Assembly: GCA_002118135.1 (NCBI GenBank)
Contig: BDIU01000067.1
Span: 124,001-188,000 of the forward strand
Reading direction: 5' to 3'
Origin: Trebouxia sp. TZW2008
Taxonomy: Eukaryota > Chlorophyta > Trebouxiophyceae > Trebouxiales > Trebouxiaceae
DNA length: 64,000 nt
The notes under the pieces are model-generated. The model saw only the letters and a list, made by a program, of their open reading frames with translations. It searched no databases and had not been told where the DNA came from. Of this stretch, positions 8,801-11,800 are shown in pieces. Position 1 is the first letter of the stretch. Every line of letters begins with the position of its first letter. The position numbers and the translations under genes are program-made.

Positions 8801-11800
8801 TCTATGGCACAGCATCACCACCAGGGTCATGCACATGCTGGCAACTGTTACAACTCAATGTCAGTCTGAACTCACAGTTTGCTACAATTTGATGCCTTGC
8901 ATGTATGAAGTTGAGTGTTGTCTGCAGGCGGTGGGGATGCTGCATGAGGAGGTGGGCAGCCAGGCAGAAGGTGCCTGCGGTGACATGCTGGTGCTGCCCA
9001 TCTACGCTGCTCTGCCCCCAGAGCTACAGGTCTGCACCCTACCTCTTCTTGTTGCCTTTGACCATTGCACAGCACAACGAAGGTTCTGCCAATGTCTGCC
9101 TATGTCTTGTATTTGCATTCCTGTGGTGTGAATCAGCTGCTGTGCTTTTGCGCTACATATCAAAGGACATGCAATCACTCTTGCGCATCAAAGTCCTTAC
9201 GCTAGAAGGAGCATATCCTTTCCCACCAAACAGTTGCTGCAGGCAAGGGTGTTTGCACCCGGTCCACCCAACTGCCGCTATGTCACTGTGGTCACCAACA
9301 TTGCAGAGGAGGACTGCTGCTAGGCACCTGCTGCCAGACTCACTGCAGAAATGACGTTCATTCTCAGAGTTTCTCAGCAGTGGCCCTACTTCACATGCAC
9401 AATTGCTGGCTGCAGGCAAGAGTGTTTGCACCTGGGGCGCCTAACTGCTGCCGCATCATTATGGCCAGCACTGCAGGCAGAACCGTCGGTCTTGAGCAAA
9501 GTTCACAAGTCGCTTTGCATCATATGTATGAATGCTGATTGCAGGCAAGGGTATTTGCACCTGGGCCGCCCAACTGCCGCCGCGTCATAGTGGCCACCAA
9601 CATCGCGGAGACCAGCATCACTGTGGAGGGTGTGGTGTATGTGATAGACCCCGGCCTGGTGAAGCAGAAGTCCCACAATGCCCAGACCGGCATGGACTCC
9701 CTGGAAGTTGTCCCCATTTCAAGGTGACAGAATGAGAGTTGAAGCAAGTTTGTGAGGAGTAATGCTGTATGGGCAAGATTTCACCTCGGAAAATACCACC
9801 AGTAACTGGCCTTAGCCATCACACGTGCTGTGGGTGTGCGTGTTGCAGGTGTCAGACCCCAGATCAGCATGGACTCCCTTCAGGTTATCCCAATCCCAAG
9901 GTACCTGGCCTTTGCATTGAGCTGTTTGGACGCATGCATGCCTGAGTAGTATTGTTACAGTCATTGAACAGTCCAGCTTCAAGATTGAGTGTGTAGCATA
10001 AGTTGTGACTTGCCCAGTCCTTCCACATAGCTTGGTCATTGCACTTGAAAGCAACTACCTGCCTATGTTGTGACTGCATGTATGGAATTGTCGTTCACCT
10101 TGCATTCAGCATATGCTTGTCTTTGACTGCAGGGCAAAGACAGTGCAAAGGGCAAGCCAAGCATGCTGCACTGAAGGATGGTCTGCATCAGATTGTTGCT
10201 GGCCACAAATTGAGCAGACATCAGAGCATGCTTCACTGAAGAGGCACTTATGCACAAGACACTGGCTTGTCACTGTTTCAAACAGGGGTCAATGTATGCT
10301 TGCCTTTGCTGGGTACAGGCAGTGCAGAGGGCACATAGGGCAGGCCGCACTCAAGCTGGCAAGCGCTTCCTCTTGTGCACTTGTCATAGTCAAATAAAGA
10401 GCCAATATATGCTTGCCTTTGCAGGGTGCAGGCAGTGCAGAGAGCAGGACATGCGGGCCGCACCCAAGCTGGCAAATGCTTTGGAATGTACGCTTGTCAT
10501 GGTCAAAACAAAGGCCAGCACATGCTTGTGTTATGTGCAGAGTGCAAGCAGCGCATAGTTTGTAGAAGCAGGGCTACCATCAAGTCACTTGTGCATCTGA
10601 TAGCTGCTTGCAATTGTTGTCAACAAACGCCAACACATACTTGCCTTCGCAGGGTGCAGAGGGCGGGTAGGGCAGGCCGCTCCCAAGCTGGCAAGCGATT
10701 CCTCTTGTACACTTGTCTGGTCAAATGTAGAGGCGACATATGCTTGCCTTGTGGCTGCAGGGTGCAAGCAGTGCAGAGAGCAAGCTGAGCAGGCTGCACC
10801 CAAGCTAGCAAGCGCCTCTGCTTGTACACTTGTTGTGATCAAAAGAAGGGCTGACATAGGCTTGCCTTGTGAATGCAGGGTGCAGGCAGTGCAGACTTGC
10901 CATCAAGTCCCTCATGCAACAGTGTCAGCCTGTCAGAATCTAATCACAATAATCAATGGTGAATGATGCTCAATTTCTGGCTGCAGGGTGCAAGCAGTGC
11001 AGAGAGCAGGTCGTGCAGGTCACACTTAAGCTGGCAAGTTCTTCCTATTGTACACTTGTCATGGTCAAATCACGAGCCTGCCTTGTGAATGCAGGGTGCA
11101 GACAGTGCGAGTTTTCTATCAAGTCACCCATGCACCAATTGTTAGCCTGTCAGAATCTGTTCACAATGAGCAATGGTGAATGATGTTTGACTTTTGGCTG
11201 CAGGGTGCAAGCAGTTCAGAGAGCAGGCCGTGCAGGCCGCACTCAAGCTGGGAAGTGCTTCCGCTTGTACACCGCCAAGTTTTTTGAGCGTGACATGCCA
11301 AATGTGGCTGTGCCTGAGATCCAGCGCACCTCCCTGCTCACCACAGTGCTGTCTCTCAAGAGCTTGCCTCTACCTGTGGACGTCCTGGCCTTTGACTTCC
11401 TAGACGCACCCAAGGTGACCCACAAGCTCATCCTTTTGTATATGCTTTGTCATAGGCTGTGGGGCTGTTTGCCAGCTAGATTTTGGTTAAGACTATGTGT
11501 TGGAATGTTGTGTTGGGAGCCAACATGAACGCTGAGCTGTGACGTGCTGTCTGCTGGCAGAGTCCTCTTTGACATAATATTTTGTCCTGAAGCCAGATTT
11601 GCAACCTTGAGGAAAAGCTCTGGAGGGTCCATTAAAGCAGCTGTTGCATGATGTTTGCTGGTTTGGTGTCATTACAATTTTGATGGTTTCGATGCAGAGG
11701 GAGGCTCTGGAGGGCGCATTGAAGCAGCTATGGGTACTGGACGCTCTGGATGTAGACGGCGGCATCACCCCTCTGGGCCGTCAGATGGTATCCCTACCCT

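Follow-up and report, generated by a model that had tools for sequence, protein, structure and literature searches.

Copies of an exon start ahead of a helicase exon in Trebouxia probably record recurrent short tandem duplication

Why should the intron ahead of a conserved helicase exon carry nine extra copies of a splice acceptor and the beginning of that exon, and do these copies act in splicing or merely record how the locus was duplicated? We addressed this question in a 64-kb stretch of the genome of the green alga Trebouxia sp. TZW2008 (the window), drawn from an assembly of 68.5 Mb in 527 contigs. No RNA families or tRNA genes were found in the window. The gene, the intron, and the exon concerned are as follows.

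5897..15542, + strand: DEAH4-type RNA helicase gene of 14 exons, modelled with GT-AG introns; 745 codons, counting the stop symbol
9724..11203, + strand: intron 7, which houses the array and, at 1480 bp, is longer than any of the other 12
11204..11414, + strand: true exon 8 of the gene model, encoding QRAGRAGRT (motif VI according to the preliminary description of the locus); 97% identity in a tblastn search with P0001

In the 14-exon model, the helicase product is identical to P0001 of Trebouxia sp. C0009 at 641 of 742 aligned residues. A protein search with a 557-residue helicase query also returned a protein of Trebouxia sp. C0009 as the closest (90%), with other genera at 68% or less among the matches listed. 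Named relatives from other plants and algae are usually called DEAH4 or DHX8/PRP22-like, and DHX8 tops the solved-structure matches. P0007, a product predicted for the orthologue in Trebouxia sp. C0004, exits the exon-8 frame at the 3′ end of that exon and then stops; this departure from the family looks like retention of intron 8, which is a guess. The P0007 cluster represents 33 member sequences from one contig, and these may be many isoforms. Asterochloris, a sister-type lichen alga, has a mean of 9 introns per gene (PMC6652019).

The array spans 10124-11272 and comprises ten copies of an acceptor and exon start, of which only the last, exon 8, is complete; the preliminary description had claimed both about ten copies and a single full exon at the end, and both claims hold. 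Exon-like sequence begins at 10133, 10312, 10425, 10541, 10653, 10761, 10879, 10987, and 11095, and the true exon at 11204. The spacings are, in order, 179, 113, 116, 112, 108, 118, 108, 108, and 109 bp, and the near-regular period of about 110 bp first described is therefore borne out (108-118 bp) with the exception of the first gap. Searching for the core TGCAGGGTGCARGCAG with two or fewer mismatches gave 10 matches in the window, of which the array accounts for 8, against a chance expectation with a mean of 0.83 and a maximum of 3 (100 shuffles); this pattern misses the array copies at 10133 and 10653. The nine upstream decoy acceptors of the preliminary description are present as copies, with AG kept in eight, although the copy at 10312 carries TG instead.

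Two types of unit make up the array. Type A copies (10312, 10425, 10653, 10761, 10987, and the true exon) carry exon bases 1-69 followed by a linker, and type B copies (10541, 10879, 11095) carry the first ~17-20 exon bases followed by a different intron stretch. After the diverged first copy, the units are ordered A A B A A B A B A, the final A being the true exon. Self-matches within the array lie at offsets 332 and 226, which, together with the unit order, suggests block-wise duplication, by three and by two units. An alternation of long and short units had been noted in the later part of the array; an alternation does exist there, of unit type, and we rejected one of unit length because A and B units are both spaced 108-118 bp apart.

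10133..10187, + strand: decoy copy 1, the most diverged one; AG retained, end approximate
10312..10380, + strand: decoy copy, type A, AG lost (TG)
10425..10493, + strand: decoy copy, type A
10541..10557, + strand: decoy copy, type B, end approximate
10653..10712, + strand: decoy copy, type A, 9 exon bases missing
10761..10829, + strand: decoy copy, type A, in-frame stop
10879..10895, + strand: decoy copy, type B, end approximate
10987..11055, + strand: decoy copy, type A, nearest to the true exon in sequence, in-frame stop
11095..11110, + strand: decoy copy, type B, end approximate

Pieces of other exons also recur in this gene. Using the model exons as queries against their flanking introns, with shuffled introns as a control, we found 15 own-exon fragments, derived from exon 4 (1), exon 5 (1), exon 7 (3), exon 8 (5), exon 9 (3), exon 10 (1), and exon 13 (1); exon 8 copy 1 and the three type B copies fall below the threshold and are outside the 15. 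At this same threshold, the 14 helicase exons yielded no inverted fragments and no fragments in the introns of other exons. All 15 are partial duplications in which part of an exon recurs in introns of its own gene, and none contains both exon ends, as a whole-exon duplication would. Those belonging to exons other than exon 8 are listed here.

6996..7115, + strand: exon 4 fragment, bases 5-124 of 136, upstream of the exon
8312..8474, + strand: exon 5 fragment, 3′ part, downstream; donor lost, indels
9243..9308, + strand: exon 7 fragment, 5′ part, upstream; acceptor present
9416..9470, + strand: second exon 7 fragment, 5′ part, upstream; acceptor present
9858..9900, + strand: exon 7 fragment, 3′ part, downstream; donor GT
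11617..11642, + strand: exon 9 fragment, bases 7-32 of 215, upstream
12028..12097, + strand: exon 9 fragment, 3′ part, downstream; donor GT
12218..12256, + strand: second exon 9 fragment, 3′ part, downstream; donor GT
12981..13065, + strand: exon 10 fragment, 3′ part, downstream; donor GT; intron part of the unit matches too
14976..15030, + strand: exon 13 fragment, bases 158-212 of 221, downstream

Two other genes in the window carry exon fragments of the same kind in their introns. One has an exon at 20021-20302 that matches Pfam Peptidase_M48 at 27.9 bits (cut-off 20.3). The other, at 24800-32650, has weak cyclic-nucleotide-binding matches, all under the Pfam cut-off; at an E-value of 1e-10 or better, the sole homologue listed for it was a Trebouxia sp. 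C0004 protein, P0121, with 47% identity over 53% of a hand-joined query.

19662-19780, 19830-19920, and 19923-19974, + strand: three Peptidase_M48 exon fragments, 5′ half, upstream
20361..20473, + strand: Peptidase_M48 exon fragment, 3′ part, downstream; donor present
30232-30357 and 30395-30523, + strand: two exon fragments of the cNMP-binding-like gene, 3′ part, downstream of the exon ending at 30190 (approximate); donors present
31492..31615, + strand: fragment of another exon of the cNMP-binding-like gene, upstream; exon ~31651-31877, ends approximate

Across the three genes, the 22 fragments represent 13 exon sides (those that share a side are non-independent) and obey a strict rule: the 3′ end of the exon occurs in 0 of 13 upstream fragments, and the 5′ end in 0 of 9 downstream fragments. 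Such a rule is expected if segments spanning an exon border are duplicated in tandem and one whole exon must remain. Random insertion of exon pieces would not yield it. One locus departs from the simplest form of this process. The exon 9 fragments in 11830-12390 are 92% and 96% identical to the exon, with intron spacers between them that barely align, unlike the exon 10 fragment, whose match runs through exon and intron. A one-step tandem copy should leave exon and spacer alike and does not explain the exon 9 pattern, which could instead stem from conversion by the exon, from a spacer that was lost and replaced, or from selection acting on the fragment.

The exon 8 array is one case of a wider duplication process in the sampled genome. 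Our sample, taken from this genome alone, totalled 184 kb: the window plus twelve 10-kb stretches. BLAST self-comparison at 34 bits or more gave 133 direct versus 5 inverted matches at offsets below 1000 bp, that is, copies in the same orientation and close by, as in local short tandem duplication; beyond 1000 bp, up to 10 kb, it gave one direct match. The BLAST self-comparison filter hides offsets below ~50 bp, and we therefore ran a separate ungapped scan, which found 205 pairs of local direct repeats above threshold in the 184 kb versus 0 in one order-1 shuffle per sequence. The repeats form 78 clusters, split evenly between the window, where 39 cover 10,914 of 64,000 bases, and the 12 stretches, where the other 39 cover 12,563 of 120,000 bases and one stretch has none. 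Their density is uneven, with L011 and L012 (G000:C40 and C50, 100001-110000) holding 17 of the 39 clusters outside the window. A genome-wide search with exon 8 found five places among the best candidates, all in this array.

The smallest offset per cluster, a measure that leans to small values, is 13-40 bp in 16 clusters, 40-60 bp in 1, 60-200 bp in 59, 200-400 bp in 0, and 400-600 bp in 2; over all 205 pairs, 103 have an offset of 60-200 bp. Pair density per bp of offset is ~0.7-0.9 at 100-200 bp and ~0.15-0.25 at 220-400 bp. Nine pairs have 8 bp or less between copies, six of these overlapping by 2-6 bp, and many pairs are separated by a spacer that does not align.

The window contains several further repeats. 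A tandem repeat at 2386-2697 has 2.9 copies of a 110-bp unit, similar in size to that of the exon 8 array, and another at 3338-3607 has 3.8 copies of a 72-bp unit with several frames open and no exon link there. A long GTCT microsatellite-like stretch lies at 29403-29595 and a CATC/TTCA microsatellite at 61229-61359. Aldo-keto reductase-like exons recur across 44068-51571, one piece matching Pfam Aldo_ket_red, which suggests neighbouring gene copies.

We consider it likely that the exon 8 array is near-neutral debris of recurrent short local tandem duplication across the intron-exon border, enlarged by unequal exchange, with its decoys tolerated. One founding duplication, of type A, would have run from approximately intron -44 to exon +69, and a separate one, of type B, from approximately intron -92 to exon +17. 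Both would have set units of acceptor and exon start ahead of exon 8, after which unequal exchange of two- and three-unit blocks would have grown the array. Copies would persist only where the exon was left unbroken, giving 5′ pieces upstream and 3′ pieces downstream of the whole exon, and the decoy sites would be tolerated at the cost of, at most, low-level aberrant transcripts. That the array might be a by-product of unequal exchange was among the initial proposals for this locus; the direct-only copies and block-wise repeats support it, as does like debris at other helicase exons, in the two other genes, and at the sampled places in the genome.

At the codon level, the copies largely appear to be decaying. 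Over exon bases 21-69, the identity of the four type A copies without gaps is 0.78-0.84 with the true exon and 0.65-0.78 among themselves, which is the pattern that a slowly changing exon and freely decaying copies would leave. Changes unique to the copy side comprise 16 synonymous and 18 non-synonymous, one of them a stop. Taking a single pair for each of the 13 exon sides, we counted 94 synonymous changes among 179 (53%), compared with the 46% expected of neutral copies whose neighbouring exon can change freely at silent sites (one-sided P 0.04), a slight excess that weighs against neutrality. Strong coding constraint on the copies was entertained on a first count (74 of 129 synonymous) in which changes of the true exon were counted repeatedly, and was rejected with the count of one pair per exon side. 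Codon-level evolution of the copies thus seems close to neutral.

One result, a deficit of indels, hints at a departure from pure neutrality. The 21 exon-fragment pairs contain 5 gap openings in 277 mismatches; ~22 would be expected because other local pairs contain 36 in 346 mismatches (30 non-overlapping pairs, 130 bp or less). This calibration was initially made on 50 pairs that included trivially aligning, self-overlapping ones and was repeated on 32 and 30 non-overlapping pairs. Among simulated copies, 5 or fewer gap openings occurred in 0 of 300 runs at an indel-to-substitution ratio of 0.074 and in 22 of 300 at a ratio of 0.03. With the gappy M48 fragment and the 9-base gap at 10653 included, the count rises to 11 gap openings (P 0.007-0.017), and the true deficit may be smaller still, copy 1 and the type B copies being outside the count and copy 1 aligning with further gaps. 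An alternative cause of the deficit may be that exonic sequence acquires indels less readily than the intronic repeats that served as the calibration set.

Splice signals give a similar picture. Splice dinucleotides are intact at 20 of 22 readable boundaries (13 of 14 acceptors, 7 of 8 donors), with P 0.03 on an assumed per-site identity of 0.85 for copies that are non-independent, nine of the 22 boundaries being those of related exon 8 copies. Within the array, 3 of 20 columns vary in exon bases 1-20 versus 24 of 49 in bases 21-69 (P 0.013, uncorrected, the region having been picked post hoc). Low variation of bases 1-20 would also result if type A and type B copies exchanged sequence in the part they have in common.

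Would the upstream acceptors be used? Scored with a weight matrix built from the 12 other acceptors of the helicase gene, 8 of the 9 decoys, one of these 8 without AG, exceed the leave-one-out median of real acceptors. Of the 496 other intronic AGs, 10 do so, and at least 5 of these fall within the array or other fragments. The upstream sites thus look usable, in line with their initial description as potential acceptors, and the acceptor competition or cryptic-exon switch suggested in that description may be possible. They also look harmful if used: with exon 7 spliced to each of the nine in turn and translation followed to the exon-8 donor, a premature stop, as in a poison region, is predicted after 7-120 codons in every case (9/9). 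The gene persists despite these sites, which suggests that they are little used or that the losses are tolerated.

These scores could nevertheless be read as a sign of function, with the decoys competing with the true acceptor, diverting part of the transcripts to stop-bearing forms, and tuning helicase output as a poison-type region. We think this unlikely. The advantage of the decoys over other intronic AGs, their location in the longest intron, and the relation of the host gene to splicing helicases all fit such a role, and the stop after exon 8 in P0007, read as intron 8 retention, can be cited for it along with the 33-member cluster. However, the retention in C0004 is a guess in which the array is uninvolved, the matrix was built on only 12 sites, codon-level evolution is near neutral, and the presence of like fragments at other helicase exons and in two unrelated genes argues that nothing is special to such a regulator. 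It is quite improbable, in our judgment, that the fragments are or were alternative coding exons that kept their frame for this reason. The indel deficit, weaker at 11 gap openings, and the slight synonymous excess point that way, and several fragments, such as the exon 4 and exon 9 copies, read open; yet both exon ends are found together in none of the 15 helicase fragments, two exon 8 copies contain stops, the exon 5 copy has both frame breaks and stops, the synonymous share differs widely from what ordinary coding selection would give, and the deficit itself could reflect an inherently lower indel rate of exonic sequence than of the calibrating repeats.

Tandem arrays are hard to assemble, and with 527 contigs in the assembly the number of copies might not be exact. 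The copies, though, differ mutually by ~20-35% over exon bases 21-69, whereas those of an artefact would be near-identical, and like repeats occur at scattered genome loci; we therefore rejected an assembly artefact as the source of the array and regard it as very improbable. We likewise rejected insertion of a mobile element or introner carrying an acceptor, an explanation that seems to us hardly credible. Repeated splice-site-bearing units in introns are what such insertions would leave, but the units here consist of adjoining exon and intron rather than of dispersed copies, there are no cross-intron matches, and the exon start lies, among the best candidates genome-wide, only in the array.

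How does debris of short tandem duplication at exon borders compare with known systems? In tandem exon duplication with mutually exclusive exons, a known system, copies of an exon region also lie in tandem; the copies here are incomplete and in most cases are without one of the two splice sites. For intron gain through tandem genomic duplication, a case is reported in potato. This known route to new introns likewise starts from a short tandem duplication in which a segment with a splice site is copied (PMC3443670). There, AGGT duplicated within an exon gives rise to a new intron, whereas here the duplicated border between intron and exon was presumably already in place, and the surplus pieces remain within the intron. 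Another known class is that of partial and intronic exon duplications, in which exon pieces, including degenerate exons, recur in introns or across exon-intron borders; PMC12343006 reports that these partial events exceed full-exon duplications in number and that lower eukaryotes generally have fewer events. Compared with that class, the present case differs in having 15 fragments with one 14-exon gene of a unicellular alga, an exon start copied nine times, and a strict side rule (PMC12343006). We found no report of such exon debris in Trebouxia in the openly accessible literature.

With respect to mechanism, fill-in at broken ends can give small tandem duplications (PMC8355091), and these resemble the present repeats in being short, direct, tandem, and at scattered places. 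The link is one of likeness. A bolder proposal, which we rate as rather unlikely, is that a distinct process in this Trebouxia lineage repeatedly generates short direct duplications with a ceiling of about one nucleosome repeat (~200 bp), perhaps through fill-in repair of staggered breaks, strewing introns with acceptors and donors that look functional, and that the fragments keep frame and splice signals via low-level splicing, leaving the genome with a reserve of partly formed alternative exons. That desiccation could be the source of such breaks in lichen algae is speculation.

What the array means depends on how well our sample represents the genome. Were the sample atypical, the array would be a curious but ordinary relic. 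If it is typical, the Trebouxia genome shows short tandem duplication in progress at exon borders, with copies of many ages beside the intact original, and raises the question of what sets the upper size limit of ~200 bp. Such a genome would permit direct study of spliceosomes that ignore, or sometimes use, near-perfect decoy sites, and would offer a test of whether exon debris commonly precedes alternative exons or longer introns.
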